A stretch of DNA of 64,000 nt from positions 62,001 to 126,000 of the forward strand of contig JANQJS010000025.1 of assembly GCA_028281535.1 (NCBI GenBank). Direction: 5' to 3'. Under the pieces are notes generated by a model, which made no database searches, was not told the DNA's origin, and was given only the letters and a program-made list of their open reading frames with translations. Both the position numbers and the translations under genes were made by a program. This document shows positions 27,537-51,041 of this stretch, piece after piece. How positions within the stretch are numbered: the stretch's first letter is position 1; each line of letters begins with the position of its first letter. This DNA is from Sedimentisphaerales bacterium (GTDB taxonomy: Bacteria > Planctomycetota > Phycisphaerae > Sedimentisphaerales > SM23-30).

Positions 27537-30500
27537 CTAGTCAAGGGTAATAGAATCGCTTGCATCAAAGTTATTTGATGTTGTATTTAAACGTAGTGTT
27601 ATCGTACCAATTGCATCTAATTGATCTGCATTTTTGATAGTCAGTTTAAACGTACATTTGTTTAAATCAATTGTGATTGATTGGATGTCGCCATTAGATT
27701 TTTTCGGTTTTTTATAGTTGAATATACCTGTTTTTTTTGTAGTGAAAGAGCCTGCTGGTAGTGTTTCAGAAAAAGTGTTATTGCCAATCCAGCTAATGGT
27801 GATTTCTTCTGTGGTCAAATCCAGGTTTGCCAATGAAGAGGTGATCTCACCTTTTGCATTTAATGAATCGCCTTTTTTGCTCGATTTTACTTTAGCGTTT
27901 GTGATGTCTAAAGCATCAAAAACACCTGAAAGTAAGCATAGTGGTAATAGGTTTTTTGCATTAATATCTTCAAGGCTATCGTAAATCATAATGCCAGCGT
28001 AGGTGCCAAAATCCAATTCCAACTTAAAGGGCAGTTGAAACCCTGCAAGGTTGATATCTTTGATAGATATGTCGTAACTGTTTTTCTTGAAATCCAATGT
28101 TAATGTAGCGACATTGCTGGTGAGTAAGTCGGGGCTTTTATAACTAAACTTAAATGTTTTGGTTAGCTTGCCCAGATCAAGGGTGATATCAAATTCTTCA
28201 AAGAAGATGACCGATACTTCATTGTCAAATTCATCCAGGGTTGTAATTCGAATGGAAATGGTGTCTGCAGGCAGTAGGTCTGACGGACTTGAGTCATTGA
28301 TGTTATCGTAAAGTTGACCTGAGATCGAAATATCATCACCAGGGTTTTGAGAGGTTCGATCTTTCCCTGCTTTAATAGATAATTTGGTGATAGTGATATT
28401 TTGAGGAATGATTTCGGGCTCGTTGGGTTCTTCGTTGGGGGCATTAGGGTCAGGATTGTTTGGGTCTATAAATTCAATCGTTGTTAAGCATAAACTTTCG
28501 GAATAATCGCCAATGTTGGGTACACCTGCGCTATCGCGCGCTCGTACTTGGTAACAATATTCCGTTAATTCATCTAACTCGATATCTGTATATACGGTTG
28601 ATGTTTGCCAATCACTGTTGCTACCACCTGGATTACCTGATACTTCAATAAATTCGTATTCCACGGGCCCGGATAAATCGTTGGCCGTGGTTGCCATGAT
28701 GGCAATGGCATCATGACTGATCACAGTAGGCGTGTCAAATGTCATTGGATTGGGGGTAGGTGGGGTGGTGTCTGATGGTGCCTGAGTTGTCGCACAAGAT
28801 GTGGATGAAGCGGTTGTCGCATTTCCTTCGGAATCTCTGGATTGGACGGTATAGCAATATTGTGTTAAACTCTCCAATCCCTGATCAAGATAATTGGTTG
28901 ATGTTTGCCATGAGCTATTGCTTCCACCTGTATTTCCTGATGTTTCTGTGAAGAAATATTGTAATGGACCTGAATCATCCGATGCTGTTGTTGCGGTCAT
29001 GCTGATGGTTGTTTCGCTGATGGCATTTGGAGCCGTCTCAAATGTCGCAGGATTGGGCGTTGGTGCAGTCGTGTCTGGTGGATCATCAGTCGTTGCGCAT
29101 GCTGCTGCAGAGGCTGTGCCAGTGTTACCTGTGGCATCTCGTGTTTGTACCGTATAACAATAAGTTGTGCTGCTACTAAGTCCATTATCTGAATAATTCG
29201 AAAAAGTTGTCCAGTCACTGTTGGTTGCTCCTGGATTACCTGTTGTTTCGACAAAATTATATTCAACAGGTCCAGATATGTCTGTACCTAAAGAAACCAT
29301 GCTGATAGAGCTGTCACTATTGGCGAATGGGGCTGTTGTAAATTCAGCTGGATCGGGTGTGGGTGGATCTAGATCAATGGATGTTGTTGTTGCACAAGCT
29401 TGACTGGACGGAGTGGTGGTATTACCTTCGGAATCTCTAAATTGTACCGTATAGCAATATTCCGTGCCGTTAGATAGGCCATCATCCCCAAAGCTAAAAG
29501 CGGTACTCCATGAACTGCTTGATCCACCACTATTTCCAGTTGTTTCAGTAAATAAATATTCCACTGGTCCAGAGGCGTCCGTAGCTGTTGTTGCAGTCAT
29601 ACTAATTGCAGTATCACTATCTGCTGAAGGCGGAATCGAAAAAGTTGCAGGGTTCGGTGTTGGAGGGGTCGTATCAGGAGTTAGTGTGGTAGCACAAGCT
29701 GGGTTTGAAGCGGTTCCTGTATTACCTAAACCATCTCTGCTTTGAAGTGTGTAACAATATTGGGTGCTGTTCGTTAAGCCATCATCAACGAAACTTGTTG
29801 ATGTTGACCAGCCACTATTGGATGCACCAGAGTTACCTGATGTTTCATTGAAATCATATTCAATTGGGGTTGCAGGATCGGTTGCTGTCGTGGCTGTCAT
29901 ACTAATCGCAGATACGGAATCGGCCGTTGGAGGGATAGAAAATGTCGCAGGGTTAGGTGATGGTGGGGTCAAATCTGGTGCCGCCGTCGTCGCACATGCC
30001 TGACTAGAAGCTGTTCCCGTATTAGCCAGGGCGTCTCGCAATTGTACCGTATAGCAATATTGTGTACTGCTGGATAAACCATCATCAGTATAGTCTGTAG
30101 ATGTTTGCCAACCGCTATCCGTGCTACCTGAATTATCAGATGTTTCGTCGAAATTATATTCCACTGGGGTAGAGATGTCAGTACCTGTGGTTGCCGTCAT
30201 CGAAATGGAACTACTGTCGTTAGCAGTGGGTGACGTATCAAACGTCGCAGGATTGGGGGTTGGTGCGGAGGCATCTTCTATGGTAATTTCTAAATCTTCA
30301 ATGGTAACTAATGTTGATGTGTCATCAAGTGAATTATTATTAGTTACAAAAAGTCTGATGGTTGTTAGGGGAGGGAGGGTGGGAACTTGGTATTCAACAG
30401 TCCATTGCAGGCCAGCTGCAGGTACTTCGCCAACCGTTGAAATAATGCCTACGACATTTGAGATTAATATCGTTCCATTGTTCTCGACTGATCCGTTCGC

Positions 30501-30746
30501 CTGAAAAGCATTTTGGAAATTTATATTTTGAATTTGAGGGCTACTGGCGGTTCCACCTTCACTTGAATTTAGTGTAAAGCTTAATGCGCTCAATAATTCA
30601 ACGGAAGTCATTTCAAGTGTAATGACTTCACCGGGTGTGTAATTTGCTTTTGTGTCATTACTAGCGACGTTGATTTGTATTGCAGCTTGAGAAACTTCTG
30701 AAAATAAAAGTAAGCAACCTACGACCGCTAAAATATAATATTTCAT
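27537..30746 (-). CDS. Secreted protein with cohesin-like N-terminus, six FN3-like repeats and a tandem unknown module
   Basis: A 1069-residue exported protein. Signal peptide ends near SQA (about residue 21). Residues 22-155 look like an immunoglobulin-like or cohesin-like beta domain (TPGEVITLEMTS, ALSFTLNSSEGG, LQWTVEYQVP). Six repeats of about 94 residues follow (about 160-728), each with PTPNPATF, SGPVEY.F, GWQTST.Y.D.GL and YCYTVQ.RDS.GN, an FN3-like pattern. The C-terminus (about 748-1069) is a two-part module beginning ITITKLSIKAGKDRT, also found at the C-terminus of the cyclophilin protein at 48855-51041. GGAGG precedes the ATG by eight bases. Function unknown; probably adhesion or binding outside the cell. 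Confidence 0.75.
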   Translation of the reverse strand: MKYYILAVVGCLLLFSEVSQAAIQINVASNDTKANYTPGEVITLEMTSVELLSALSFTLNSSEGGTASSPQIQNINFQNAFQANGSVENNGTILISNVVGIISTVGEVPAAGLQWTVEYQVPTLPPLTTIRLFVTNNNSLDDTSTLVTIEDLEITIEDASAPTPNPATFDTSPTANDSSSISMTATTGTDISTPVEYNFDETSDNSGSTDSGWQTSTDYTDDGLSSSTQYCYTVQLRDALANTGTASSQACATTAAPDLTPPSPNPATFSIPPTADSVSAISMTATTATDPATPIEYDFNETSGNSGASNSGWSTSTSFVDDGLTNSTQYCYTLQSRDGLGNTGTASNPACATTLTPDTTPPTPNPATFSIPPSADSDTAISMTATTATDASGPVEYLFTETTGNSGGSSSSWSTAFSFGDDGLSNGTEYCYTVQFRDSEGNTTTPSSQACATTTSIDLDPPTPDPAEFTTAPFANSDSSISMVSLGTDISGPVEYNFVETTGNPGATNSDWTTFSNYSDNGLSSSTTYCYTVQTRDATGNTGTASAAACATTDDPPDTTAPTPNPATFETAPNAISETTISMTATTASDDSGPLQYFFTETSGNTGGSNSSWQTSTNYLDQGLESLTQYCYTVQSRDSEGNATTASSTSCATTQAPSDTTPPTPNPMTFDTPTVISHDAIAIMATTANDLSGPVEYEFIEVSGNPGGSNSDWQTSTVYTDIELDELTEYCYQVRARDSAGVPNIGDYSESLCLTTIEFIDPNNPDPNAPNEEPNEPEIIPQNITITKLSIKAGKDRTSQNPGDDISISGQLYDNINDSSPSDLLPADTISIRITTLDEFDNEVSVIFFEEFDITLDLGKLTKTFKFSYKSPDLLTSNVATLTLDFKKNSYDISIKDINLAGFQLPFKLELDFGTYAGIMIYDSLEDINAKNLLPLCLLSGVFDALDITNAKVKSSKKGDSLNAKGEITSSLANLDLTTEEITISWIGNNTFSETLPAGSFTTKKTGIFNYKKPKKSNGDIQSITIDLNKCTFKLTIKNADQLDAIGTITLRLNTTSNNFDASDSITLD

Positions 30747-30771
30747 TGTAAGAACCTCCGTGTCTTAGGCA

Positions 30772-30793
30772 TATTATACTTAATTGATTATAC
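30772..30793 (-). promoter_or_regulatory. Duplicated -10-like boxes before the FN3-like repeat gene
   Basis: Read on the minus strand, AAGTATAAT occurs twice, 14 bases apart, 27-46 bases before the start at 30746. Either TATAAT could be a -10 box; no strong -35 is visible. Confidence 0.35.
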
Positions 30794-30829
30794 TTGTTTC
30801 ACTTAAGAAGGCAATCGTCTTTTTGAATT

Positions 30830-32116
30830 TTAGTGATCTAGAGGCTGAAGAGGAGGCTTAGAAGTGTCCAGTTTTTGGAATAGTTTAGGCATATACCAAA
30901 ATCCAATCGCTGCGATGAATTGGAGAGTACCGGTCAAAATAAATAGCCATAGGCTGCCTATGACATGGTAAGCCATAATTCCAATAAATGGAGCAATAAC
31001 ACCTCTAAGACCTGTTAAACTAACATGAGCCCCCATGTAGAGTGCATCTTGATTTTTTGGGGCAAATTCCATGTGCCCAAGACGCCAAGCAAGTTGCCCG
31101 CCTCCCATTGCTATTCCTGAAATAATTCGACTCACTAGTACGATTTCCAGGCTATTTAGTATAATCGCGGCGACAAGAGTAAATCTTGCCAGTGCCCAGA
31201 TGCCTGCGGAAATGGTTCTGATTTTAAATATGGTGTGTTTGTCAAAATAACGAGCCCAGAGTATGCTTGAAATTCCTGTTACAAATAATGGGATTGCCGC
31301 TAAGGCCGCACCGCCTTCTGTCCAGTTTAGATTGAATTCATCAGCGATTATGATAATTATCACTACTTCGACCATCATTGTTGCAAGGCCATGCATCATT
31401 TGCCATGACATGAAAATTCTAAACCGCTTATCTGTTTTAAGAATCGAAAAACTTTGAAAAAAACCTGATGACCAGTTAGAAATTTTAATGATTGTACCTG
31501 AGATTTTTTGTTCTTGGACTCTGAGTATCAATATGGCTGCTATGAACCCGAAAATCGCACTTAGTCCAAATGGAATTTGGTATGAAATATTCCAGATATC
31601 CATGGCTCTGGAAAATATAAAAATGGTTAATGTATTAAATAAGGTCATTGTTAATGTGAGAGCGACCACCAATTTACCACGGTGTTCAATCGGGTAATTA
31701 TTTCGCCAAACACTGGAGCGGAGCGTAGATACTTGTGCTGCGCCAACTTGAATCAAAAAGATTTGGATTAAATATAAATAGGAAACGGTTTCATTCGATA
31801 ATTTATGCGTGGGTGTTAAGGCGACAGTTAATAAAAGAGTCGATATGATCGTATAGAATAATGAAAGGATACGAATTTTGTTGAGATGATGAATATATGA
31901 AATAACAGGCCCTGCCAGCAGGAGCCCCAGCATATGACAAGACATTAACCAGGCCAGCAAATAATCTGGCATGTGTAACGCTTTTCTAGCGACAAATCCA
32001 CAATAGTTATGCGCAAGAACGCCGGTCACGACACTAAAAGGAATGATGGCAATAAGTTCCCGCCAGAAATTCGAGCGAATATCGTCGGGGAGATTTTTAA
32101 ACCATTCAGGTAGCAT
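30830..32116 (-). CDS. MFS transporter
   Basis: A 428-residue inner-membrane protein with about twelve hydrophobic segments, for example IPFSVVTGVLAHNYCGFV near the N-terminus, ILSLFYTIISTLLLTVAL, IFGFIAAILILRV and LWLFILTGTLQFIAAIGFW. The segment LAWRLGHMEFAPKNQDALYMGAHVSLTGLRGVIAPFIG is typical of the second half of major facilitator proteins. Substrate cannot be inferred. It follows the small lipoprotein gene by 35 bases on the same strand and may be co-transcribed with it. Confidence 0.82.
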   Translation of the reverse strand: MLPEWFKNLPDDIRSNFWRELIAIIPFSVVTGVLAHNYCGFVARKALHMPDYLLAWLMSCHMLGLLLAGPVISYIHHLNKIRILSLFYTIISTLLLTVALTPTHKLSNETVSYLYLIQIFLIQVGAAQVSTLRSSVWRNNYPIEHRGKLVVALTLTMTLFNTLTIFIFSRAMDIWNISYQIPFGLSAIFGFIAAILILRVQEQKISGTIIKISNWSSGFFQSFSILKTDKRFRIFMSWQMMHGLATMMVEVVIIIIIADEFNLNWTEGGAALAAIPLFVTGISSILWARYFDKHTIFKIRTISAGIWALARFTLVAAIILNSLEIVLVSRIISGIAMGGGQLAWRLGHMEFAPKNQDALYMGAHVSLTGLRGVIAPFIGIMAYHVIGSLWLFILTGTLQFIAAIGFWYMPKLFQKLDTSKPPLQPLDH

Positions 32117-32151
32117 AATTACGAATGGTCTTTACGGTTAAGGTTGGACAA

Positions 32152-32361
32152 TCAGTCTAAATAAATATGGTAGTGTGTTAAAGAACTAGGCTTGTCCAAT
32201 AACAACAATGCATCAATGTCATGGCCCATCATGCGACGGTTAATATCAGCAATACGGCTATACTTTCTGTATTGTTGTTCTTTATCCAGAGCTGGAGTTT
32301 CGCAGCCAACCAGGAAGATACCTACAGATAATAGTAAACTTAAAGTGATGGTTCTTAACAT
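32152..32361 (-). CDS. Small lipoprotein
   Basis: A 69-residue lipoprotein. MLRTITLSLLLSVGIFLVGC gives a signal peptide with a good lipobox (LVGC, Cys20). The mature part is short and charged (KYSRIADINRRMMGHDIDALLLLDKPSSLTHYH), and its compact DINRRMMGHDIDALLLLDKPS core looks conserved by type. Start at 32361 is preferred over the ATG at 32382 because AAAGGA stands six bases before it. The MFS gene follows. Function unknown. Confidence 0.7.
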   Translation of the reverse strand: MLRTITLSLLLSVGIFLVGCETPALDKEQQYRKYSRIADINRRMMGHDIDALLLLDKPSSLTHYHIYLD

Positions 32362-32753
32362 TCTGTGTCCTTTATTATTCATTGCCTGATTAAAAAAATC
32401 AGTAGGGCAGGATTTAGGGGTGTTTCTTCTTTATATCTTGCTTATTAATATCTTAAACCAATCATATCGATTTGTCAAGTTGAAGCTAATTTTGCCCAAA
32501 TCGACTAGGCGGACATATAAAGCTTTTAGAGGGATAAGGTGTCGTAATGTGTTGTCATTAAAGAATATATCTCCTGATCATTTGGTGAGATTTATTCATG
32601 GGTTTTATGTCTGTAGATGATAAAAACACAGAAAATAATCTTTTTACTATTTTGAGCGAGTGATATAATGTAATCAGCATCGGAGCAGAAAACGAAAACT
32701 ACAACAAAATCCATTGTAAGTGGTGGGTTTTAAATAAGTAAGGTAAGAAGACC
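32362..32753. other. Non-coding gap before the 94-residue hypothetical gene
   Basis: About 390 AT-rich bases with no supported gene. A TATAAT at 32664-32669 may be a -10 box for the gene at 32754. A 66-codon plus-strand frame at 32420 has no ribosome site or recognisable features. Confidence 0.4.
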
Positions 32754-33038
32754 GTGGTCGTTGGTTTATTTAAACCATCCTACAAAATCAGGCAGTTTAT
32801 CGGACCTGAATCTTTTACCACTGCGGTAAAATATGCAAAGCAGTGGTCTCAGGTAATTGATATGCCTATTTGTTTGTGGGAGCATACACAGGGGCATAGT
32901 ACTCATGGCCCATTTTACGTTAATCGGTGGAAAGATCCTTGGCCAAATGAGCATTGCAAGGTTATTTGTGTTTACGATCAAGGTCGAAATAATGCAGCAT
33001 TGATTGCGGTATTGGATCAGATAGAGATAAAACGTTAG
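32754..33038 (+). CDS. Small hypothetical protein
   Basis: A 94-residue protein starting at GTG. It is rich in aromatic and basic residues (CLWEHTQGHSTHGPFYVNRWKDPWPNEHCKVICVYDQGR), lacks a signal peptide or membrane segment, and I do not recognise it. A weak purine stretch (GGTAAGAAGA) precedes the start and a TATAAT lies about 85 bases upstream. It could be genuine because its composition looks protein-like, but there is no family evidence. Confidence 0.5.
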   Translation: MVVGLFKPSYKIRQFIGPESFTTAVKYAKQWSQVIDMPICLWEHTQGHSTHGPFYVNRWKDPWPNEHCKVICVYDQGRNNAALIAVLDQIEIKR

Positions 33039-33144
33039 GTGACAGTCTCGTTGTTTGATTTTTGAATAGGGATCAAGTATGTTACACTTGTCAATATTTT
33101 GTCGGGTTTTGGTGTATCATAATAATCATTAATAAAAATGTTGG

Positions 33145-36100
33145 GTGAAAAAATTGTATCAAAAGCACGGAATAGGAATTAATCGGGATGTATTTAATTT
33201 AAAATCACATAGAGCCTGCATGCTATTGGCATCTATTTTGATGTTGGTCATATGTGGTAATGTTTCATTTGTTACTGCACAATACAGTAGTAAAGATACT
33301 TTTTTAAGACCAACCTATGATGATACAAATGCGTCTCATTGGTTTGGTGGCGATGACAGGCCAGGATTTATAGGTAGAAATGTTGGAGTTGGGCAATCAT
33401 ATTACTTTGACGAGCCAAGCTATCTATATCATTTGTCATTTCGATTTGATCAAAGGTTTAATTTTTTTCAAAACCCAGATTATTTATTACATCCGGTGAT
33501 TCTTGTATTGCAAGTCCGCTTGGATGATGGAACGATCCTTGATGAAGTAGAAACGTCAGTCGTTACTTTACCTATTTCTGGGAGTTGGGTCCGGTTTAAT
33601 TTAAATCGTTATTTTCATGCTGACACAACTTATATATTTACATGTTATTTGAAATATGGTTCAACCAACATGCTTACATCCGGAGTTACAGGATGGAGTG
33701 GGTCAGATTTGATTCCAAATAGTACTGGGTATTTTGCAGAAAGTATGGAGGATCATATTGATCAATGGTCTGATTGGTATCCACATCCTTGGGATTTTAA
33801 TTTAAAATTATGGGGGCATGAATGTATTGATGGTTGTGATTTTTTAGAAACAATTTATGTCGATAAAAATGCAACCGGCGACAATAATGGATTTAGTTGG
33901 GATGATGCGTTTGTTAATTTTCAAGATGCTTTAACTGCCGCTACGCCGGGAGATCAAATTTGGGTGGCGCGGGGGACCTATTATCCAACATCAGATCATG
34001 GGTTAGGACTAGGTGATCGAGGTAAACATTTTAAACTTTTAAATGATGTAAAAGTGTATGGTGGGTTTACTGGTACCGAAACAGAGTTAAATCAGCGTGA
34101 TGTTGAAAACAACGAAACCATCCTTTCCGCTGATATTGGATTTATAGGACATCCAAATGATAATTGTTATCATATCTTTTATCATCCCAATGGGACAGCT
34201 TTAAATTCCACGGCTTTGTTAGATGGATTTACTGTGAGAGATGGTTACGCGACAGGGAGCGGAGACCATGGTTCAGGAGCAGGGATGTTTAATGATCATA
34301 GTAGTCCTAGAGTTGGGAATTGTATTTTTGAGAATAATACGGCAGGGCTAGGCAATGTTGGCGGTGGGATATGTAATTTTAATAGCAATCCGATTATTTT
34401 TAAATGTCAATTTGTTAACAATAATGTTTTATCAGATGATGCTGGCGGAGGCGGTGGAGCGATTGCAAATAGCTTCAATAGCAGTCCGGAAATTACAAAT
34501 TGCTTTTTTAGTGGTAATAGTACTCTATTTGGAGGTGCTTTATACAACTCGAGTGGTGATCCAATTATTACAAAATGTCGATTTGTGAACAATATTGCTT
34601 ATTCCGGTGGTGCTATCTATACATTCACAAACAATGTAATGATCCATCAATGTGAGTTCGTAGATAATGCTGCAGATACGGATGGTGGTGCTATTTATAA
34701 TGCTTCTGATACGGTTATTTCAAATTCAATTTTCAATGGTAATTCAGCTCATACTGGTGGGGGGATATTTAATCAGTTTGATGAGCCTACCATCGTAAAT
34801 TGCACCGTCACCCAAAATCATGCAAGCGTAGGGGGGGGGATTAGTTCTTCGAATAATGGTAATGTGATTTTAAACAATAACATCGTTTGGGGGAATTCTG
34901 CTAATGCATTTCATGATAATATTTCGCTATTGCTAAATGGAACAGCCGTTGTCAGCCACTGTAATGTCGCTGGCAGCTACGGCAGTGGAATAAATTGGGA
35001 TCCTAATTCTGGGTCTGATTTGGGTGGAAATGTTGATGTTGCTCCATTGTTTATTGATGCTGATGGTCAAGATAATTTACCGGGTACGGAAGATGATAAT
35101 CTTCAGTTGACAATTCAATCGCCTTGTATCGATTTAGGTAATAATAATGCGATTGTTGGCATCGGAGACTTTTTAGGTAACGAAAGAATTTTAGATGGTA
35201 TTGTCGATATGGGTGCTTACGAAACTGCGACAACAATACATAATATAACTCAGGATACCTGGCATCCAAGTATACAAATTGCGATAAACCTTGCCCAGAA
35301 TTCTGACGTGATTGAACTTCTATCTTATGAATACATTGGGCAAGGGAATCATGATATTGATTTTCTTGGTAAAGAAATAACTTTGCGGAGTGCAGATCCT
35401 GAAGATCCTAATATTGTTGCGTCGACCATTATTAATTGTTTAGGCAGTTCAGATGAGCATCATCGTGGATTTTATTTTCATCAAAATGAAAATGGAAATG
35501 CTATCTTGGATGGATTAACCATTAAGAATGGCTATGCTGAAAAAGGAGGTGGAATCTTAATTGAAAACGCCAGTCCGACAATCCGTCGATGTGTGATTAC
35601 CCAAAACCAAACGATCGATGCAACGGTGGAAGATCTTGATTACGAAATCTGGGATGATGGTGGTGATGGAGCAGGCCTTTATATTGATACGTCTTCCGTG
35701 TTCATTGATAGATGCAATATCATTCAAAATACAACTGGAAGTGGAGCTCATGCCGTTCCGTTAAGAGGTGGTAGGGGAGCAGGGCTTTTTGCCATAAATT
35801 CTAATGTGACCATTTTAGATAGTATGATTAGAGAAAATACAACAGGTGATAATGGTCCTTGGACGCTTGAAGAATGGCGTTCTGTAGATGGTGCTGATGG
35901 TGGTGGGATTTATTCAGATCAAACAAATTTGATCATTGACCGCTGCTCTATCATAGGAAACAGTGCAGGCTTAGGTGGAAGTAGCGGTGATTGTATTAAA
36001 GGCAGCAGTGGTGGCCGAGGGGGTGGTATCTATTCCTCATCAACACTTCTGATTAGTCACAGTGTTATAACTAACAATGCCTCTGGAGATGGTGGCGGTG

Positions 36101-37437
36101 GAAATTGCGATGATTTTCCATCACCGACAGATGGCGGGGACGGAGGCAATGGTGGAGGCATTTACTGCTCAGATGCGATTATAATTAATTGCACGATTAC
36201 TCAAAATCAAACAGGCGTAGGAGGCCATCATGGAACAGCTGGTGGCGAACCTGGTTCTCCTGGTTTAGGGAAGGGGATTTATGGTACTCAACTCACAGAA
36301 TTAATAAATAGTATTGTATGGGAAGAAGGAGCTGATGCTGTCGTTGGTATGAATTGTAATAATGTTCAATTTAATAATTTATCCAATGGTTTGTGCCTTG
36401 GTCAGAATGGCAATATTAATGCTGATCCACTCTTTGTGTCTGGTTATTATCTTTCATCGACGCAAGGGCATTGGGATCCTAATAACCAAAATTGGATAAT
36501 AGATTCTGTGACAAGTCCTTCAGTAGATGCTGGATCTGACGCATCGAATTATGCCATGGAACCATTCCCTCATGGAGGTCGAATCAATATGGGGGCGTTT
36601 GGTGGTACGCAATTCGCGAGTAAGGGGAAAACGTTTTCTCCTTCAGATTTAAATCTAGATGGACAAGTGGATACGGATGATATTCTATTGTTTTCCAGTT
36701 ATTGGTTGATGCAGGAATCATACTTTATAAATCATGGTTATGCGATTGTTGATGGAGATCTATCTGAATGGCAGAATGCGCATTGGATCGATTTAGATCA
36801 AACCTATTTTGGGCAGCCTGTGGATATTCAACAGGCAAAATTTTCGGTACGCTGGAATCCTAATGGAAAACTTTATTTGGCGGTAAAAGTTCTTGATAAC
36901 TCTCATTATTTTACAGATACATATGTAAATTGGGATGCTGGAGATCGTATTGAAATTTACAGTCAAGGTGATGCCGCTGGTGGTGGAGGATTCTGGTATT
37001 CCAATGGAAGTGAATGGGATGCCGCTCAGCAATATATGGTTGCACCTAATTCCTCAGGTGGCTCGTGGTCTTCTTGGGGAGATGGTGAACTCATTAATGC
37101 TGATGCTGGTTTTGATTACGCCGCCGTTGTTGATGGCAATTGGATACATTACGAAGCGTGTATTACTCAATTTGATAATTATGGCGGTATTGTAGGGCAA
37201 GAAAATCAGTATACTGACTTGTTTGTTGGTCATGTTCTTGGGTTTGATGTTATTGCTGATACTCGTTCGAGTGAAAGTGTCTTTGGTATGCTTTCGGAAA
37301 ATCTCATGCTTAATAAATTTAACAATGCCGATCAATTTCAACTGTATACTTTGATGCCAAGTTGTGATTATGACCAAAATGGGATAATTGATTTTATAGA
37401 TTATGCTATTTTTGCATCGCAATGGCTCACGGAGTAA
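33145..37437 (+). CDS. Secreted parallel beta-helix protein with split dockerin-like repeats around a CBM9/DOMON-like domain
   Basis: A 1430-residue exported protein. The signal peptide is preceded by a basic n-region and ends near FVTAQ (about residue 45); a GTG start is used and may not be exact. A beta-rich N-terminal domain (about 47-230) is followed by a long right-handed beta-helix (about 235-1160) opening with the segment VDKNATGDNNGFSWDDAFVNFQDAL and rich in GGGIYSS and ITQNQT turns. Then come one EF-hand repeat (DLNLDGQVDTDDILLFSSYWL, about 1168-1190), a CBM9/DOMON-like domain (about 1195-1400, IVDGDLSEWQNAHWIDLDQ, FSVRWNPNGKLYLAVKVLDN), and a last EF-hand repeat (CDYDQNGIIDFIDYAIFASQWL). 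Probably polysaccharide-binding or degrading at the surface; no catalytic motif is certain. A T-tailed terminator follows. Confidence 0.85.
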   Translation: MKKLYQKHGIGINRDVFNLKSHRACMLLASILMLVICGNVSFVTAQYSSKDTFLRPTYDDTNASHWFGGDDRPGFIGRNVGVGQSYYFDEPSYLYHLSFRFDQRFNFFQNPDYLLHPVILVLQVRLDDGTILDEVETSVVTLPISGSWVRFNLNRYFHADTTYIFTCYLKYGSTNMLTSGVTGWSGSDLIPNSTGYFAESMEDHIDQWSDWYPHPWDFNLKLWGHECIDGCDFLETIYVDKNATGDNNGFSWDDAFVNFQDALTAATPGDQIWVARGTYYPTSDHGLGLGDRGKHFKLLNDVKVYGGFTGTETELNQRDVENNETILSADIGFIGHPNDNCYHIFYHPNGTALNSTALLDGFTVRDGYATGSGDHGSGAGMFNDHSSPRVGNCIFENNTAGLGNVGGGICNFNSNPIIFKCQFVNNNVLSDDAGGGGGAIANSFNSSPEITNCFFSGNSTLFGGALYNSSGDPIITKCRFVNNIAYSGGAIYTFTNNVMIHQCEFVDNAADTDGGAIYNASDTVISNSIFNGNSAHTGGGIFNQFDEPTIVNCTVTQNHASVGGGISSSNNGNVILNNNIVWGNSANAFHDNISLLLNGTAVVSHCNVAGSYGSGINWDPNSGSDLGGNVDVAPLFIDADGQDNLPGTEDDNLQLTIQSPCIDLGNNNAIVGIGDFLGNERILDGIVDMGAYETATTIHNITQDTWHPSIQIAINLAQNSDVIELLSYEYIGQGNHDIDFLGKEITLRSADPEDPNIVASTIINCLGSSDEHHRGFYFHQNENGNAILDGLTIKNGYAEKGGGILIENASPTIRRCVITQNQTIDATVEDLDYEIWDDGGDGAGLYIDTSSVFIDRCNIIQNTTGSGAHAVPLRGGRGAGLFAINSNVTILDSMIRENTTGDNGPWTLEEWRSVDGADGGGIYSDQTNLIIDRCSIIGNSAGLGGSSGDCIKGSSGGRGGGIYSSSTLLISHSVITNNASGDGGGGNCDDFPSPTDGGDGGNGGGIYCSDAIIINCTITQNQTGVGGHHGTAGGEPGSPGLGKGIYGTQLTELINSIVWEEGADAVVGMNCNNVQFNNLSNGLCLGQNGNINADPLFVSGYYLSSTQGHWDPNNQNWIIDSVTSPSVDAGSDASNYAMEPFPHGGRINMGAFGGTQFASKGKTFSPSDLNLDGQVDTDDILLFSSYWLMQESYFINHGYAIVDGDLSEWQNAHWIDLDQTYFGQPVDIQQAKFSVRWNPNGKLYLAVKVLDNSHYFTDTYVNWDAGDRIEIYSQGDAAGGGGFWYSNGSEWDAAQQYMVAPNSSGGSWSSWGDGELINADAGFDYAAVVDGNWIHYEACITQFDNYGGIVGQENQYTDLFVGHVLGFDVIADTRSSESVFGMLSENLMLNKFNNADQFQLYTLMPSCDYDQNGIIDFIDYAIFASQWLTE

Positions 37438-42913: not shown

Positions 42914-42955
42914 AAAAACAAACACCCATCTGATTCGAGACCAGAAAGGTGTTTG
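42914..42955 (-). terminator. Terminator after rpsT
   Basis: CAAACACC pairs with GGTGTTTG, enclosing a TCTG/CAGA inner stem; on the minus strand the hairpin runs into TTTTTG. It lies about 30 bases after the rpsT stop. Confidence 0.7.
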
Positions 42956-42984
42956 ATTAATTTTAGGCAATTAGTTTACGGAAA

Positions 42985-43263
42985 TTAGCCGATTTTGGCT
43001 TTGACCGTATTGTAATGGCGAGACAATTGCGAAATTTTGCGACCAGCGGTATTTCTGTGAATAACACCTTTGACGACGAGTCGCTGAATTTTTCTTTGAG
43101 CTTCTCGTAATTCCTGATCAATTTGGTTCAAATCTTTGCCCTCTTTGGCAGTGGACAGGAATTTCTTAATTTGTGTTTTTGTTGCGCTGGTCCTTTGGCG
43201 ATTGAGGACGCGTCTTTTCGCATTTTGCCGAACTCTCTTTTTGGCTGATAGCGAGTGTGCCAT
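42985..43263 (-). CDS. rpsT: 30S ribosomal protein S20
   Basis: A 92-residue basic helical protein that binds 16S rRNA in the small subunit. MAHSLSAKKRVRQNAKRRVLNR and GVIHRNTAGRKISQLSRHYN match S20. AAGGAG is five bases before the ATG. The TPR gene lies 34 bases upstream on the same strand and a terminator hairpin follows. Confidence 0.97.
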   Translation of the reverse strand: MAHSLSAKKRVRQNAKRRVLNRQRTSATKTQIKKFLSTAKEGKDLNQIDQELREAQRKIQRLVVKGVIHRNTAGRKISQLSRHYNTVKAKIG

Positions 43264-43297
43264 TATTACTCCTTGTAATACAAGCTCTTATAAATAA

Positions 43298-44737
43298 TTA
43301 TTCCGAGTCTTTACTCTTTTTTCTTAAAGCGTCGACCCGAGTTCTGACGTCAAAATAGTTAAAATCAATCTGGGCGACTTTACGATATTGCTCCAAAGCT
43401 TCAGGGATTTTACCATCCGCCTCGTAAGCGCGACCCAGATTATACATTAATTTTTTCGCGAAGTCACCCTCTTTATCTTCAGCAGCTTCCAATGCATCAG
43501 AAAAAGATGAAATGGCTTCAGGGTACCATTCTGTATGGTAAAAACAGCGTCCGATGTAGTCATTTGATCGGGCACGGAATTTGATGTCGCCACGGGACTG
43601 CTGGAAGAGCGGGATTGCATCTTCATACTTTTGAGCTTTGAAATAACGACAGGCTAGCTCATATTTGTAGATCATTTCAGTGGGATAATTATCCGCACAA
43701 AGTAGGTAATGATCGATTTCAGTAGCTAACAAGCGTTTGTCCGCTTCTTTGTATTTAACTTTCAAATCCTTATCATCAGGATTCTGTTTAATTCTTGCCC
43801 GCAGATTACGTAATCGGCGGTTATGTTGTTTCATTTTAGTTTCATTCGATCGTTGTTTGAATCGAAACTGATCAAGATTTTCGAAAGCTTCATCAAGAAT
43901 TTTAATCGCTTCCAATTCATTTTCAGGATCGTCCGTTTCAACTAAAATGTCAACATAGGCATTGATTTTTCCAGGCACATTAGGATTCTTTTCATATTCC
44001 TCTCGTGCTGTTTGAATCATGTCCGCTACAACTTCTTCTGACTTGACGATGTTTTCTTGGCTTTGTAGTTTTGATTGCTCTTCAGCATCTTTAATGCTTT
44101 CACGGAAATCGCCATCACCTTCATAGTTTCCCTGCTCCATCGTTGATTTAACGGTGAGTTCGTTCAGGAGTTCTTGAAGGTTTTTGTCATCTTTTTTCTT
44201 TTGCAGTGCCATTTGGCATGCTTTTAGGGCTGTGGTGTAATAGCCCAATTTTTCATATTGTTTTAATAGAAAATGATAATCATTGGCAGAAGCTTTTGGG
44301 TTTTCGATATGCATACCAAATAAGATATCACCAATCCATTTGCCTGTTTCTTTGAAATCACCATTGGCACATGCTTTGAGCATATCGGCCATGTGTGACG
44401 TATTTTTTGGATCTTTACTGAGCAGGTATTCAGCTTTCAGCATAGCATCTTTGGGGATTTTTCCAGATGCTTTTTTATATTTAGACCCATCGCCAAAACC
44501 AGATTTTTTTCCGCCATCCAAAGCGCGACGCATCGCGACTTCACGTAGTTTCATATGACCTTCTTCCACGGCTTCTGGCCAGAAAGTGATGCCATACAAA
44601 TACATATCTATGGCATAATCATAGTTTAACGAGTAGGCTTTCTCGGCGGCGGTTTTAAAGTATTCTCTCGCCTTATTTTTTAATTCATCTGGAAATTCTA
44701 AAGACATATTTCGGCTGTTTGTTGCTGTTTTGCTCAT
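43298..44737 (-). CDS. TPR-repeat protein upstream of rpsT
   Basis: A 479-residue soluble helical protein. TPR-type segments are clear at the C-terminus (ELACRYFKAQKYEDAIPLFQQ, RCFYHTEWYPEAISSFSDALEAA, YNLGRAYEADGKIPEALEQYRKVAQ). A charged coiled coil lies at about 195-330. No signal peptide. Related proteins seem common in planctomycetes, but I cannot name a function. It may be co-transcribed with rpsT, 34 bases downstream. Confidence 0.75.
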   Translation of the reverse strand: MSKTATNSRNMSLEFPDELKNKAREYFKTAAEKAYSLNYDYAIDMYLYGITFWPEAVEEGHMKLREVAMRRALDGGKKSGFGDGSKYKKASGKIPKDAMLKAEYLLSKDPKNTSHMADMLKACANGDFKETGKWIGDILFGMHIENPKASANDYHFLLKQYEKLGYYTTALKACQMALQKKKDDKNLQELLNELTVKSTMEQGNYEGDGDFRESIKDAEEQSKLQSQENIVKSEEVVADMIQTAREEYEKNPNVPGKINAYVDILVETDDPENELEAIKILDEAFENLDQFRFKQRSNETKMKQHNRRLRNLRARIKQNPDDKDLKVKYKEADKRLLATEIDHYLLCADNYPTEMIYKYELACRYFKAQKYEDAIPLFQQSRGDIKFRARSNDYIGRCFYHTEWYPEAISSFSDALEAAEDKEGDFAKKLMYNLGRAYEADGKIPEALEQYRKVAQIDFNYFDVRTRVDALRKKSKDSE

Positions 44738-44841
44738 AGTAGTTATTCTCTATATAGACCCCGTTATTACTTTTATTCCACTATAATTATAGCCCAGGGT
44801 CGTCAGAAAATCTACTTAATTTGCTTGTTTGCAACGATTAA

Positions 44842-44863
44842 GATCTCATTTATTTGTGAGATC
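44842..44863. repeat. Inverted repeat in the TPR-def divergent region
   Basis: GATCTCA and TGAGATC flank an eight-base AT loop (TTTATTTG). It lies between two divergent start codons and could be an operator or chance. Confidence 0.35.
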
Positions 44864-44985
44864 AGGGGTTGCATATTAAATAAATCGCTTGTAATGTTTA
44901 TGCTAGTTGAAATTGCCTTTATTTGGACAATTCAAGCCAAGTAGCATATTCCGTAATGAGTGATTTGTAAAGAGATTTTAAGTAT

Positions 44986-45504
44986 ATGAATATAAATAAG
45001 TTAAGAATCATCAATTATCCTGACCCGCGATTACTGGTTCCTGCTAAGCCTGTTGAGATGATTAATGATGAAATTCGGGCTTTGTCCGATAAAATGATTG
45101 ATCTAATGATCGAAGCTTCAGGTATTGGATTGGCTGCACCACAGGTGGGTGTTGGGCTGCGACTTTTTGTGAATAGTCTTACTTGTAGTCGGGATGATGC
45201 ACTTGTTTTTATCAATCCAGAATTGAGTGATTTCGAGGGTGAGTCGGTTATGGAGGAAGGGTGTTTGTCGCTTCCTGGAATCCATGTGAAAGTTAAGCGA
45301 CCTGCCAGTTGTGTCGTCAAGGCTCAAAATTTAGAGGGCAAACTGTTTGAGATTAAAGCAGAAGAATTGGAATCTCATAATGTCCAACATGAGACGGATC
45401 ATCTGGATGGTCGACTCATTATTGACCGCATTGGTTCATTGGACAAGATGGCCTGTCGGAAAAAATTGAAACAATTAGAAAAAGAATATGAAAATGCTCG
45501 TTAA
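44986..45504 (+). CDS. def: Peptide deformylase
   Basis: A 172-residue metalloprotease-fold enzyme that removes the formyl group from new polypeptides. All three motifs are present: GIGLAAPQVG (46-55), EGCLS (91-95, metal-binding Cys) and HETDH (135-139, two His ligands and catalytic Glu). A lipoprotein and a ROK kinase gene follow at gaps of 38 and 27 bases, probably one operon. Confidence 0.96.
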   Translation: MNINKLRIINYPDPRLLVPAKPVEMINDEIRALSDKMIDLMIEASGIGLAAPQVGVGLRLFVNSLTCSRDDALVFINPELSDFEGESVMEEGCLSLPGIHVKVKRPASCVVKAQNLEGKLFEIKAEELESHNVQHETDHLDGRLIIDRIGSLDKMACRKKLKQLEKEYENAR

Positions 45505-45542
45505 TTGGTGCGTGTACATTTAGATATTACAAAAAAAAGTGA

Positions 45543-46139
45543 ATGGTTATGAAACAAATTTCTAAATACTCTGTTTTGTTTTTATTTTTTATTATTTTGC
45601 AAGGATTGTTTGTGGGGTGTGCGAGCCAGCCAGAAAAGGCCATGGAATTTGAACGTCCTCTCTTGATTGATACCCCATTTGAAACAGCTTGGCTGGCAAC
45701 AAAAAATGAATTAAAGGCTCGTGGTTTCACTATTGCCCATTTAAACAAACGTGATGGTGTGATTGAAACCTATCCATTGTCGAGTCGTCAGTGGTTTGAA
45801 TTTTGGCGTCGCGATGTTGTGGGTGAGAATGCTATTGCTGAAGCGAGTATGCAGAACATCCGTCGTAAAGTGGTTGCCCAATTTTTTATTGATTCTGAAG
45901 ACGAGACCTTGTCGTTGGATTGTTATGCGGAAGTGCAACGCATGGTTTCCAAGCCGGAGGCAGCAAGATTGATTACACGTGGTGAAGATATGTTTGCAAG
46001 TACATCGAATCGTATGCCGACATTGCAATCTCGGTTTACCAAGAAAAAAATTCCAGATGAATGGATGACTTTGCGTCGTGATTATGACCTGGAAGTCGAT
46101 ATTATGGAGCATCTTCAGCGGCAATTATCTGGGAATTAG
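45543..46139 (+). CDS. Lipoprotein of unknown function
   Basis: A 198-residue exported protein with a signal peptide ending in the lipobox LFVGC (Cys26). The mature part (ETAWLATKNELKARGFTIAHLNKRDGVIETYPL) looks like a small alpha/beta domain; I recognise no named family. A second ATG two codons later could be the start. Located between def and the ROK gene. Confidence 0.7.
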   Translation: MVMKQISKYSVLFLFFIILQGLFVGCASQPEKAMEFERPLLIDTPFETAWLATKNELKARGFTIAHLNKRDGVIETYPLSSRQWFEFWRRDVVGENAIAEASMQNIRRKVVAQFFIDSEDETLSLDCYAEVQRMVSKPEAARLITRGEDMFASTSNRMPTLQSRFTKKKIPDEWMTLRRDYDLEVDIMEHLQRQLSGN

Positions 46140-46166
46140 TTTATCTTAATTGTTTGGAGGCGGTTC

Positions 46167-47129
46167 ATGTCAAGCAACTATTATTGGGGAATTGATATTG
46201 GTGGTACACGTGTTAAGTTAGGACTGGTAAATACAGATGGTGATGTTTTAGTCAGCTCCGTCATAGACACCTTGGTTGAAAATGGCCCTGATGATTTAGT
46301 TGATCGTATTGCGCAAACTTGTAAAGGGCTGCTTCTAACTGAAAAAATTCCTTCGGATATGGTTCGAGCTTTTGGGGTAGGATCGCCTGGGCCGATGTCT
46401 CAAAACAAAGGTACCTTGCTGGATCCTGGCAATTTACCTGGGTTTGAAAACTATCCTATTCGAGATCGACTGGCTCAACTTCTTGAACGTCCTGGAGTTT
46501 TGGAAAATGATGTTAATGCCATTTGCTGGGCTGAATTTAAATTTGGGGCTGGCCGTGATGTCGAAACAATGGTGATGCTTGCATTAGGAACAGGTGTTGG
46601 TGGCGGAATTATTTATCAGAGTGAATTGATACAGGGGGCTAAAGGAAATGGTGCTGAATTAGGGCATATGATCGTCGTAGATCAGGGACGCGAATGTAAA
46701 TGTGGTCAGCAAGGTTGTCTGGAAAGTTATGCTTCGGCTTCACATGTGGTTAAACGAACTAAAGAGAAGTTAGATTTAGGTTTAGATTCTACTTTAAAAG
46801 AGGTCATAAATGAGAATCATCATTTAACATGTGAAGCTATTTTTGAACATGCCGAGGATGGCGACGATGTGGCTGTAGATATTGTTAACAGTGTTGCACG
46901 AACACTGGCACAGACGGCGGTTAACCTTGATCATATCTTTGAACCTGAGTTGTGCGTATTAGGTGGAGGTGTTTCTAAATCAGGGGAGTTTTTACTTTCT
47001 CAGGTACGTGAACATTATCATGATATGATGTGGGATTTAAATCCGGCGACAATGGAATTTGCTATTACTGAATTAGATGATCATGCCGGAGTATTGGGTT
47101 CTGCAGCTCTCTGTTTTGACAAATTCTAA
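46167..47129 (+). CDS. ROK family sugar kinase (glucokinase-like)
   Basis: A 320-residue ASKHA-fold kinase. WGIDIGGTRVKLGLVNTDGDVL binds phosphate, GSPGPM and NDVNAICWAEFKFG form the sugar site with the catalytic Asp, and GHMIVVDQGRECKCGQQGCLESYAS carries the ROK zinc motif CxCGxxGCxE. No helix-turn-helix, so it is an enzyme and not a repressor. Glucose is the likely but unproven substrate. GGAGG precedes the ATG. The stop abuts the stop of the convergent TolC gene. Confidence 0.88.
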   Translation: MSSNYYWGIDIGGTRVKLGLVNTDGDVLVSSVIDTLVENGPDDLVDRIAQTCKGLLLTEKIPSDMVRAFGVGSPGPMSQNKGTLLDPGNLPGFENYPIRDRLAQLLERPGVLENDVNAICWAEFKFGAGRDVETMVMLALGTGVGGGIIYQSELIQGAKGNGAELGHMIVVDQGRECKCGQQGCLESYASASHVVKRTKEKLDLGLDSTLKEVINENHHLTCEAIFEHAEDGDDVAVDIVNSVARTLAQTAVNLDHIFEPELCVLGGGVSKSGEFLLSQVREHYHDMMWDLNPATMEFAITELDDHAGVLGSAALCFDKF

Positions 47130-48842
47130 TTATTCTTCCAATTCAGCTAATTTGATATTGTTATATCGAAGCAATACACCTTGTGCCCGATTTGCATCGA
47201 TAATGGCTCGGTTGTAATTGGTTTGCGATGCTATCGCACTGAGTAATGCCGTTGAAAGTCTTTCAATGGTATCAATCTTTCGATTAAGGAAATCAGCACT
47301 TATCACGGCATTAGCTTTTTCTTGAATCAGATAAGAATTTAACGTGTCTTGTTCAGATAGAACAACATCTTTTCTCGCTTTTAATTCATCAAATGCACTA
47401 TTTAGGTTATGAAGTGTAATGTTTACATCTGTAATTACTTGGTCTCTTAACCCTTGAAGGCGAAGTGATTCTTGCAATTTTTGTAATTTTGCAGATTTTA
47501 AGTTTGCCTTCGCGGCACGATTGCCGCCTAAAGGCACTTCAAAACTGATACCTGCTCTAAAGTTCATCGTATTAAGGCGATTCTGTTCATCCCATGCACC
47601 GCCTGTGGTAGTATCTGCTCCGTTGAATTCATTTGACAGCAAAAGATCCAATCTGGGTAAGACCTGGTTTTCAGCGACCCCAATTTGAAGGTCTGCTGTG
47701 TTTAACTGGATTTTTTGTGCGGCAAGCTCTGGTCTCATTTTTAAGCCAGTATGTATTGCTTTGTCGCGATCCAGTTCAAATTTTTCTGATGATGGTGAAT
47801 CTATCAACAAAAGTTCAATTTGTTCATCCAGTGGTAATTCTGGGTCATTGAGACTTTCTAATAATCGGTCTTGGCGTTGAAGGTATGCGTTGGTTGCCGA
47901 TACTAATTGAGCACGAAAACGGTTAAGGGTGGATGCATTTCGAGCAATGATGGTTACTCTAACATCATAGTTTTGACGTTCTTCCAGACGCTTTAGGTTT
48001 TCTTCTGCCTGTTGAATCATATCCTGGAAGATCATCACTTGCTGGCGTGCTTGAGATAATGTCCAGTAATTATTTTCAACTTCAGTGACGGTATTGATCA
48101 CCAGAATTTGAAATTGCAGTTGAGATATACGGAAATTATTTTGAGCCGCATTAATAGCTGCTCGATTTAAATCAATACCGAAATCTCGCAATAAAGGTTG
48201 ACGTAGTTCGACATTGAGCGAATATTCATAGAATGGATCGAAGAAAACCTGGTCGCCATCTACCAAATCTCGAAAACGCCGGAGAGTTTGAGCGATTGAA
48301 ACGGTTGCCCCCGTAGGGAGCAGTTTTCTTAGCCCCATAGCATAATTGGTGTCATGGGTTCTAACGTATGGGTCAATAGCTACTTTTCGGGTTTCTACAC
48401 CATTTTGAGTTGTCACGGTTTGTGTGAAAAAGTCTGAAACAACATTGCCTCGATCATCACTGTCGTGAGTCGCGGATCCAAAGAGAACGGCATCGAAAAC
48501 GGCCTCAGCTTGGACGACATCGGTCATCTGGATGGCTGGGTCGTATTGACCAATTTTTAAGTCCAGATTGTTTTTGAGGGCGCGTTGAATGCATTCTTCA
48601 AGTCCCAACTCAACCTTTCTCACATTAGAATTTTCCATAAGCGGTTGTGATAAACGTTGAGCGTAATCAGCACCGATGTATTTTGTTTTATTGTTATCTT
48701 TAGCGAATAGATTGGCAGCAGTAAACAACGTTATGAGCATAACACTTAACGTTATTTTGCATTTATTCAGATGCGAGTTGCCATTCGCTTTGTTGTTCGT
48801 CGAAGCTTTGATAAGAGTCTCCTTTCGATAAAATACACTCAT
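47130..48842 (-). CDS. TolC family outer-membrane efflux protein
   Basis: About 570 residues. After a signal region (LSVMLITLFTAANLFAK, ending near residue 47) come the repeated long helices and beta segments of TolC: LGLEECIQRALKNNLDLKIGQYD, NAAQNNFRISQLQFQILVINTVTEVENNYWTL, and the second copy around AKANLKSAKLQKLQESLRLQGLRDQVITDVNI. TolC proteins form outer-membrane tunnels for efflux or type I secretion. Start at the ATG 48842 with AAAGGT upstream. It lies 12 bases after the cyclophilin gene; no adaptor or ABC gene is adjacent. Confidence 0.85.
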   Translation of the reverse strand: MSVFYRKETLIKASTNNKANGNSHLNKCKITLSVMLITLFTAANLFAKDNNKTKYIGADYAQRLSQPLMENSNVRKVELGLEECIQRALKNNLDLKIGQYDPAIQMTDVVQAEAVFDAVLFGSATHDSDDRGNVVSDFFTQTVTTQNGVETRKVAIDPYVRTHDTNYAMGLRKLLPTGATVSIAQTLRRFRDLVDGDQVFFDPFYEYSLNVELRQPLLRDFGIDLNRAAINAAQNNFRISQLQFQILVINTVTEVENNYWTLSQARQQVMIFQDMIQQAEENLKRLEERQNYDVRVTIIARNASTLNRFRAQLVSATNAYLQRQDRLLESLNDPELPLDEQIELLLIDSPSSEKFELDRDKAIHTGLKMRPELAAQKIQLNTADLQIGVAENQVLPRLDLLLSNEFNGADTTTGGAWDEQNRLNTMNFRAGISFEVPLGGNRAAKANLKSAKLQKLQESLRLQGLRDQVITDVNITLHNLNSAFDELKARKDVVLSEQDTLNSYLIQEKANAVISADFLNRKIDTIERLSTALLSAIASQTNYNRAIIDANRAQGVLLRYNNIKLAELEE

Positions 48843-48854
48843 CAATCGTTACCT

Positions 48855-51041
48855 TTAGTCAGAAAGTTTGGGTAAAGCACTTATGCCAATGTCGGTAACG
48901 GTTTCGTCAAATGGACTATTTGGGTCTTTATTAAATTGAATACTAAAGTCTTGCGGCGGTGCATTTAAGTTGGTTCGGCGTATCATGACTTCAAATTCTG
49001 CTTTATCAAAATCGATCGACACACGTCGCAATGGGTTACTTCTGTCACGGAAAATAAAACGATTTGTATCGCCACGTCGTTCAAAGAGTGGGTTATTTGG
49101 ATCATCAGTGACATTAAGGGTTCTTGAGCCCCAATTGATGGTCATGGCCACTCCTGTCAGATCTACATCAGCCATATCGGTTGTGATAGAGCCTCGGACG
49201 GTAAGATTGCGGTTGGTAAAAGAGGTTGGGCGGTCATCGCTGACATAACTAAACCGTTCAACCCTTAAAATATCTTCTTGGTTTGCTTGCAGTGTCAGCG
49301 GGAATGATTTATTATTGAGGGCTGTTCCTGAAGCAATAAATGTTCCTATTGACATATCGACAACGACTGTTGGATCTAATCCTGTTAGGTTAATGTCTCT
49401 CGCATTATATCTGAAAGTACCTTTGTTAAAATCTATTCGCATCGTAACAGTGCCGCCATCGGATGTAGTGCCCTGGAACGAATAGATGGTCATTTTTTTA
49501 TTCGTAGTAAAAGAGTCGAATTCCATCGCAAATTGATGTGGGCCTATGAAAATAGAGATGGTTTCACCGGTTGTTTCATCCTTCGTTAAGGGGAAATCTC
49601 CTGTTAGATTCAAGCGATCTTGCGGATTGGTGCGATCTTTACTTGCTTTGATGGTAATTTCTAATTTAATCAGCTGGTTCGGATCATTAAATAATCGCCA
49701 GCCATTAGCAAGTGTATCAATGTTATTTGGGTCTGTTGATGTATTAAATACTTCTAAAGCTAATCCAAGTGTTGGATGGTACCAGGCCCAGTCTGCCATG
49801 TTTGTTTGATTTGGAACTTCAACCGTACTTACAAGATGGGCTTGGCCATCAAGATTTGGATCAAGATCTAGAAAACCAGGGAAAACTTCAGTGACACTGG
49901 TTAGCTCGGACTGAAAAGCATCGCCGCCTATATCAAAATTAATAATATTGTTGGGGTCATTGAAAGTATTGGGGTCGTTAGGATCGAGAGTAAAGTCATC
50001 ATCAATGAGCTTGAAAAAGAAATTATCACTGGTAAAGTTACTCAGTGGTTGAGCATCAAAGATATTGTTTTTTGAAACAAGAACCTGGCTGTTTTTTTCA
50101 TATTCCAAAACCCAGATATCACCTTCACTATCTTTGGTTAGTGTGATATCAAAACTATCGATTCCCAGATCAGGAACCCCTGTTTGCTGCCATCGCAAGC
50201 CACTTAGATCACCCGTAAATGAGCGGCTGCTGAACGTATGGGTGAAACGATTGCCAGCAAATTGATTTTGCCCGATAAAAATTCTTCGATCACCTGCAGA
50301 AGCTCTGATGAAATCTACATTTGAAAAGTCACCGCTGTTACTTCCGAAAGCAAACGGTGTGAAGAGTGCGTCGTTGATAATTACTGGCGTGTTTGGTTCA
50401 GGAACATCATCAAGCTGTGTGCCATTTGGATCGCCTAATGAAACAACGTTGACCATAGCGATTTCATCGACAACAGATTCTAGGCCATCGACGACTTCAC
50501 CAAATACTGTAAAACGTGGATCACTGGTCCCTTTGCCCGGACATCCTGTTGCTGAGAAATTATCAAGACTCGAGTTATCATCCAAATTTATATAAAACTG
50601 TGATGTGGCTGAGTTTTCATCGCATCCCTGCAATGCCATAGCAACGGTACCTCTGATATTACTTAAGCCATTACCTGCTTCACTATTGATTGGGTCATTA
50701 GGCTCATTAAAGACATTTGGATCTCTGGTCCAAAGTGGGTCTGAAGTGAAGTTGGGGTCGGTACCTAAAATATATAAATTAGGATCATATGCCCCGGCTT
50801 GAATCACAAAAGGATTGGGCTCATTGACGACGCGATGAAAAATGGTGTCATCATAAAAATCGTCTTGAATATAATCGAGTAGATTCGCCACGGTATTCGG
50901 GGCAGCGGCTCCATCCAATGCCATGTCTATATTGCCGAAATTTGTTTCAAATCTGACAATCGTGGTCTGCCCAAAGAGCGTTTTTGAAAATGCCAGAATA
51001 ATCACAAATAAGACAATAGTGGGAATGTTTCGATTCAACAC
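48855..51041 (-). CDS. Secreted cyclophilin-type peptidyl-prolyl isomerase with C-terminal tandem module
   Basis: A 728-residue exported protein. Signal peptide ends near LFGQ (about 25). A cyclophilin domain (about 27-230) keeps the key segments FHRVV (active-site Arg), FVIQAG, GTVAMALQGCDENSATSQFYINL and FTVFGEVVDGLE. A middle beta-rich region with many Asp-Pro-Asn runs (about 230-460) is unassigned. The last 265 residues are the same two-part module as in the FN3-like protein at 27537-30746 (starting EITIKASKDRTNPQDRLNLTG). Likely a periplasmic or surface folding helper. Co-transcribed with tolC. Confidence 0.82.
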   Translation of the reverse strand: MLNRNIPTIVLFVIILAFSKTLFGQTTIVRFETNFGNIDMALDGAAAPNTVANLLDYIQDDFYDDTIFHRVVNEPNPFVIQAGAYDPNLYILGTDPNFTSDPLWTRDPNVFNEPNDPINSEAGNGLSNIRGTVAMALQGCDENSATSQFYINLDDNSSLDNFSATGCPGKGTSDPRFTVFGEVVDGLESVVDEIAMVNVVSLGDPNGTQLDDVPEPNTPVIINDALFTPFAFGSNSGDFSNVDFIRASAGDRRIFIGQNQFAGNRFTHTFSSRSFTGDLSGLRWQQTGVPDLGIDSFDITLTKDSEGDIWVLEYEKNSQVLVSKNNIFDAQPLSNFTSDNFFFKLIDDDFTLDPNDPNTFNDPNNIINFDIGGDAFQSELTSVTEVFPGFLDLDPNLDGQAHLVSTVEVPNQTNMADWAWYHPTLGLALEVFNTSTDPNNIDTLANGWRLFNDPNQLIKLEITIKASKDRTNPQDRLNLTGDFPLTKDETTGETISIFIGPHQFAMEFDSFTTNKKMTIYSFQGTTSDGGTVTMRIDFNKGTFRYNARDINLTGLDPTVVVDMSIGTFIASGTALNNKSFPLTLQANQEDILRVERFSYVSDDRPTSFTNRNLTVRGSITTDMADVDLTGVAMTINWGSRTLNVTDDPNNPLFERRGDTNRFIFRDRSNPLRRVSIDFDKAEFEVMIRRTNLNAPPQDFSIQFNKDPNSPFDETVTDIGISALPKLSD

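Follow-up and report, generated by a model that had tools for sequence, protein, structure and literature searches.

A tandem all-beta module at the C-termini of diverse exported proteins of Sedimentisphaerales bacteria: a candidate surface tag

The window analysed here, a stretch of 64,000 nucleotides from a Sedimentisphaerales bacterium (assembly GCA_028281535.1, contig JANQJS010000025.1, positions 62,001–126,000), encodes on its reverse strand two exported proteins, referred to below as A and B, that end in copies of the same uncharacterised module. An earlier reading of the bare sequence, made without database searches (the sequence-only reading), had reported both open reading frames, and both are present. 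Gene A (27537–30746, 1069 amino acids) encodes a signal peptide, an N-terminal beta-type domain (approximately residues 22–150, 30297–30683), FN3-like repeats (approximately residues 155–760, 28467–30284; FN3-type PF09294 matched in five stretches, E = 3.8e-20) and the C-terminal module (residues 783–1069, 27540–28400). The N-terminal domain has no family match, the best in Pfam being only PF24353 at 0.051, and is cohesin-like by eye only. Gene B (48855–51041, 728 amino acids) encodes a cyclophilin domain (residues 29–201, 50439–50957; PF00160, E = 2.5e-30), a conserved middle region (residues 228–456, 49674–50360) and the module (residues 457–728, 48858–49673). The middle region, for which nothing in Pfam rises above its cut-off, is a second uncharacterised domain and is kept in eight other module proteins. 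In A the two units of the module are encoded at 27948–28400 (first) and 27540–27947 (second), and in B at 49308–49673 (first) and 48858–49307 (second, with a short tail). Elsewhere in the window, a 1758-residue protein (55901–61177) with matches to radical copper oxidase of the GlxA type and weak ones to plastocyanin-type models carries FN3 repeats that are 61% identical to those of A.

In a BLASTP comparison of the whole proteins, residues 781–1038 of A aligned with residues 454–688 of B at 25% identity over 265 columns (E = 3e-13). This was the only significant match (the runner-up had E = 3.7), which confirms the claim that the N-terminal parts are unrelated. The two tails gave a local score of 177 against a shuffle mean of 40.2 (standard deviation 6.9), and the first halves scored 104 with each other and the second halves 91; none of 1000 shuffles scored as high in any of these comparisons, which, together with the BLASTP value, rules out chance similarity. 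All of the motifs listed in the sequence-only reading (I.IKA.KDRT, DF.K and DINL.G in the first half; G.IT...A..DLT...TI.W and ID..K..F in the second) occur in the alignment of A with B. Its alignment of the C-terminal parts thus stands, but its lengths of 320 and 265 residues do not: a profile built from 16 copies in the same genome places the module at about 286 residues in A (783–1068/1069; E = 2.2e-95, with A itself in the profile) and about 260 in B (457–716/728).

The module is a tandem of two homologous all-beta units of about 130 residues. When 75 relatives were split at the centre, the profiles of the two halves matched each other in hhalign with a probability of 99.0 (E = 5.9e-18, 117 columns), which identifies the module as a tandem pair. 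Among single sequences, the halves of A score 80 with each other (0/1000 shuffles as high) and those of B only 46 (20/1000), so the internal homology is not visible from B alone. AlphaFold2, run on sequences of the window and one relative (L080), returned all-beta models, the second unit of A included, from which an Ig-like fold of the units is predicted. The most conserved residues include, in A numbering, Asp804, Gly810, Leu900, Gly902, Pro906, Pro935, Leu946, Gly966 and Asp1027. Such columns, mostly Gly, Asp, Leu, Pro and aromatic residues, probably mark the core of the fold, and no catalytic pattern is evident among them. A disulfide suggested by apparently co-varying cysteines in the window's genome was dropped because the co-variation is not significant over the 75 modules (Fisher P = 0.27). 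The all-beta prediction and the core-like conservation would both be expected of a structural Ig-like pair, serving as a spacer, folding cap or stability unit with no ligand of its own. Spacers, however, are usually internal and repeated whereas the module is single and terminal, and such a role leaves the charge contrast described below unexplained; we regard it as improbable.

None of the family libraries searched contains the module. The tails of A and B have no match in Pfam or NCBIfam, and neither the tail of B nor the profile of the 75 modules matches a PDB sequence, so that a known domain is rejected at the level of these three collections; the similarity is well above background in profile searches, and the domain is uncharacterised as far as they reach, as the sequence-only reading had supposed. 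The best recurrent Pfam match among the 75 modules is Glyco_hydro_5_C (8 modules, best E = 0.0086; in the single member listed in full it stays below the cut-off). BIg21 (PF05688) reaches E = 0.58 in gene B and 0.055 in one of the 75 modules, and carbohydrate-binding families appear only as singletons, such as SusG_CBM58 at 0.057 in one module. At E ≤ 0.1 the 75 modules match 14 NCBIfam families between them, none of which is a type IX model, and neither Dockerin_1 nor Cohesin (PF00963) is among the 25 listed of 27 matching Pfam families. The module is not a member of any C-terminal tag family tested. No description of it was found in the open-access literature, a coverage that takes in few subscription papers.

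Searches with tblastn and profiles identified 17 module genes in the window's genome, including clusters of four, two and two neighbours. At the level of the family, all 13 genomes carry the module; at the level of the order, 24 of 161 do (75-row profile, E ≤ 1e-10), the remaining positives being scattered genera of three other families; these ranks are as labelled by the search tool. Even samples of the class (14 of 298 genomes; 15-row profile, E ≤ 1e-3) and of the phylum (17 of 294; 75-row profile, E ≤ 1e-4) gave mostly weak, partial matches outside the order. A scan of genome contigs added one relative, L080, in the Planctomycetota metagenome genome UR.bin216, and no relatives were found in viral collections.

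To describe the architecture, we used 87 module proteins from the fetched stretches (one duplicate dropped), for 83 of which the C-terminal end is visible and for 75 of which the N-terminus is complete. The protein ends no more than 10 residues past the module in 66 of the 83 and 11–50 residues past it in another 13, so that in 79 of 83 the stop lies at most 50 residues beyond the module; two complete modules were found in none of the 87 proteins. A hydrophobic, signal-peptide-like N-terminal stretch, called by a simple hydrophobicity rule rather than a trained predictor, is present in 70 of 75 module proteins but in only 11 of 33 control open reading frames of the window. Pfam was scanned with 67 of 82 N-terminal parts (15 were omitted, 14 of them for exceeding 1000 residues; two of the long ones were scanned separately). 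The 67 contain 49 families, led by GLUG (9), cyclophilin (8), Chlam_PMP (7), GH5 (6) and beta-helix (5), with GH44, GH3, subtilase and ice-binding domains among those seen once, and RCC1, peptidases and a peroxidase also among the partners.

Carbohydrate-binding modules are often terminal beta-sandwiches, and the glycoside hydrolases among the partners (GH5 in 6 of 67 N-terminal parts, GH44 and GH3 in one each) raise the question of whether the module steers enzymes to an external substrate. Most partners, such as cyclophilin, GLUG, RCC1, peptidases and peroxidase, are not carbohydrate enzymes, and the module is poor in tryptophan (0.75%, compared with 2.05%), which makes this role very unlikely.

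A regular difference in charge separates the module from the protein that carries it. In all 71 of the 87 proteins that passed a length rule, the module is less acidic than the N-terminal part, with means of -1.0 and -7.9 net charges per 100 residues, respectively (Wilcoxon P = 2e-13, a value that overstates independence, as the rows are related). Lysine makes up 7.5% of the module but 2.3% of the N-terminal part and is higher in the module in 66 of the 71; 12 module columns are dominated by basic residues. Protein A is an extreme case: lysine makes up 9.1% of its module, while the tested N-terminal part contains none (0.0%). By comparison, just 9 of 26 exported-type control proteins from the genome become less acidic over their last 270 residues.

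In a maximum-likelihood tree of 75 modules, A falls in a clade of ten copies from its own genome and one from another genome, G010 (support 95/91), which reflects an expansion close to the window's genome. In the tree, the nearest neighbour of A's module (45.6% identical, E = 1e-95) belongs to a beta-helix protein, and the N-terminal parts of the two proteins are dissimilar (E = 0.67). Another pair of modules, those of L011_11397 and L013 (45.3% identical, E = 1e-68), is likewise attached to unrelated N-terminal parts. Because sister modules about 45% identical are thus attached to unrelated proteins, the module is mobile; the remaining pairs that were compared resemble each other in both parts, as whole-gene relatives should. 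The clade of B comprises nine rows from nine genomes of eight genera, its own included (support 100/97). The cyclophilin part of B is matched along most of its length by seven other module proteins in or next to this clade, an eighth, with its start cut, matches a piece of it, and seven of the eight proteins that share the middle region belong to the clade. The architecture of B is accordingly an old one, inherited vertically, whereas that of A arose by recent shuffling. The claim of a mobile, duplicated domain made by the sequence-only reading is therefore borne out by the homologous halves, the 17 genes in one genome and the unrelated partners, except that the module is no recent arrival in the cyclophilin protein. 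With the cyclophilin and middle parts of B as query, 11 of 246 genomes of the phylum matched, over the cyclophilin part (C-termini were read in the window's own genome only). A second exported cyclophilin of the same genome (L190, 2283–4418) has a different, repeat-like C-terminal half in place of the module.

Several known C-terminal systems resemble the module in part. The type IX C-terminal domain (Por_Secre_tail, TIGR04183; RgpB C-terminal domain) is likewise found once per protein at the end of many unrelated exported proteins of diderm bacteria, and it is a terminal Ig-like beta-sandwich (PMC4804311), as is predicted for the module. By analogy, the module might be an export or sorting signal, read by an outer-membrane secretion machine and perhaps cleaved off, and the extreme C-terminal position, single copy, signal peptides and unrelated cargo would suit such a role. 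The differences are considerable: the module is without sequence match to the type IX domain, has about 260 residues rather than about 70, is a tandem, and is not C-terminal in 4 of 83 proteins, and the machinery was not found. A type IX tail profile gave only weak matches in the 13 family genomes, a single one, in one genome, being just above cut-off. A search for SprA gave no hit in any of the 13, nor in the control genomes, and so carries no weight either way. We consider an export signal unlikely.

Terminal position, signal peptides and diverse cargo are also among the features by which the PEP-CTERM proteins were first recognised (PMC1569441). The module, in contrast, is a folded domain and not a short tag, and the ends of A, B and the other copies of the same genome, inspected by eye, are of a soluble beta-strand type and lack the Pro-Glu-Pro motif, transmembrane helix and basic end. 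Bacterial Ig-like domains such as BIg21 share the predicted all-beta sandwich and the very weak Pfam match but are not C-terminal tags. The type I dockerin-like tails of planctomycetes are attached to the same kinds of N-terminal part in the same genome; unlike them, the module is all-beta and has no calcium-loop repeats.

Dockerin-like matches are numerous in all 13 family genomes (64 in the window's genome), and each of the 13 also has exosortase; the module is therefore likely to coexist with two other C-terminal systems. Within the window's genome, homologous N-terminal parts occur with the module, with dockerin-like loops or with neither, and none of the 17 module proteins has such loops (scored with a motif of our own in the fetched stretches), as if the two acted as alternative tails. 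GLUG and beta-helix proteins with dockerin-like ends are encoded in the window at 23560–27243 and 33145–37437, and N-terminal parts of these kinds carry the module elsewhere in the genome. Two module genes lie directly upstream of a Poly_export gene, about 10 kb from a polysaccharide locus with sugar-nucleotide and sugar transferase genes and an exosortase fused behind a nucleotidyltransferase-like/hexapeptide-repeat part (L239, 10904–12805).

We propose, with a probability of roughly one half, that the module is a mobile C-terminal surface-retention module, its binding probably electrostatic. The two Ig-like beta-sandwich units would fold after export through the inner membrane, and the folded pair would then hold the protein at the cell envelope, probably by attraction between its lysines and an acidic partner, for example an exopolysaccharide or another acidic glycan of the outer surface. 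The N-terminal part, be it a cyclophilin, FN3 array, beta-helix, glycoside hydrolase, peptidase or peroxidase, would be the displayed working part. The module would behave as a C-terminal surface tag; the Ig-like fold, the retention and the acidic ligand are inferred. Surface anchoring or export, as suggested by the sequence-only reading, is thus the best-supported interpretation of the C-terminal placement and signal-peptide-like starts. Two observations favour a retaining, binding module over a signal that needs a free end: the existence of internal and half-size copies, and the great regularity of the charge contrast.

A number of observations weigh against surface retention. The module is not always C-terminal: four proteins (L138, L015, L128 and L036) continue for 227 to 468 residues past it, and one of them begins with it. 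Half modules also occur, consisting of the first half only in a FecR-type protein (L019, 4904–6328, at its end) and in two animal-type haem peroxidases from other families of the order (L037, 1–1812; L038, 1–1881, at their C-termini), and of the second half only in L139 and L093. The module of B, despite its charge contrast, has only 3.8% lysine, and the contrast itself could stem from selection on folding instead of a ligand. No dedicated machinery was found, no cognate protein is known, and the polysaccharide neighbourhood, one of many loci, is a lead only. Finally, the structural models are weak (pLDDT 49.5 for the pair; pLDDT 60 and pTM 0.60 for the second unit of A), and the nearest PDB folds, mostly antibody-type Ig domains, score within the noise of the methods (Foldseek best E = 8.4e-3 in the PDB and 3.0e-3 among viral models; VIA best Z = 5.8, with a root-mean-square deviation of 3.5 over 98 residues, for 5ggv_Y). 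These fold matches were dismissed as evidence of kinship.

A wider proposal, which we regard as doubtful, is that the module belongs to an undescribed planctomycete surface-display system. The C-terminal tag, folded and rich in lysine, would be interchangeable with dockerin-like tails and recognised by a dedicated envelope partner or machine, and cohesin-like module proteins such as L016 would anchor the many dockerin-like proteins of those cells. L016, whose genome has 64 dockerin-like matches but none to cohesin, carries, joined directly to the module, an N-terminal part (5672–6136) that is weakly cohesin-like (PF00963, E = 0.018, below cut-off), and PDB searches with this part returned unrelated chains only. 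Cohesin (PF00963) rises above its cut-off in one of the 13 family genomes, with no hits in the window's own. The idea of an anchoring cohesin scaffoldin is retained in this proposal alone, the N-terminal domain of A being without cohesin match and L016 offering only the weak one.

Little is known about how planctomycetes position and retain their numerous large exported proteins, and the module offers a handle on this problem. It would predict location from sequence, group otherwise unrelated proteins for joint study and possibly serve as a display tag, and the combination of an acidic, lysine-poor body with a lysine-rich tail provides a concrete clue to the mechanism.

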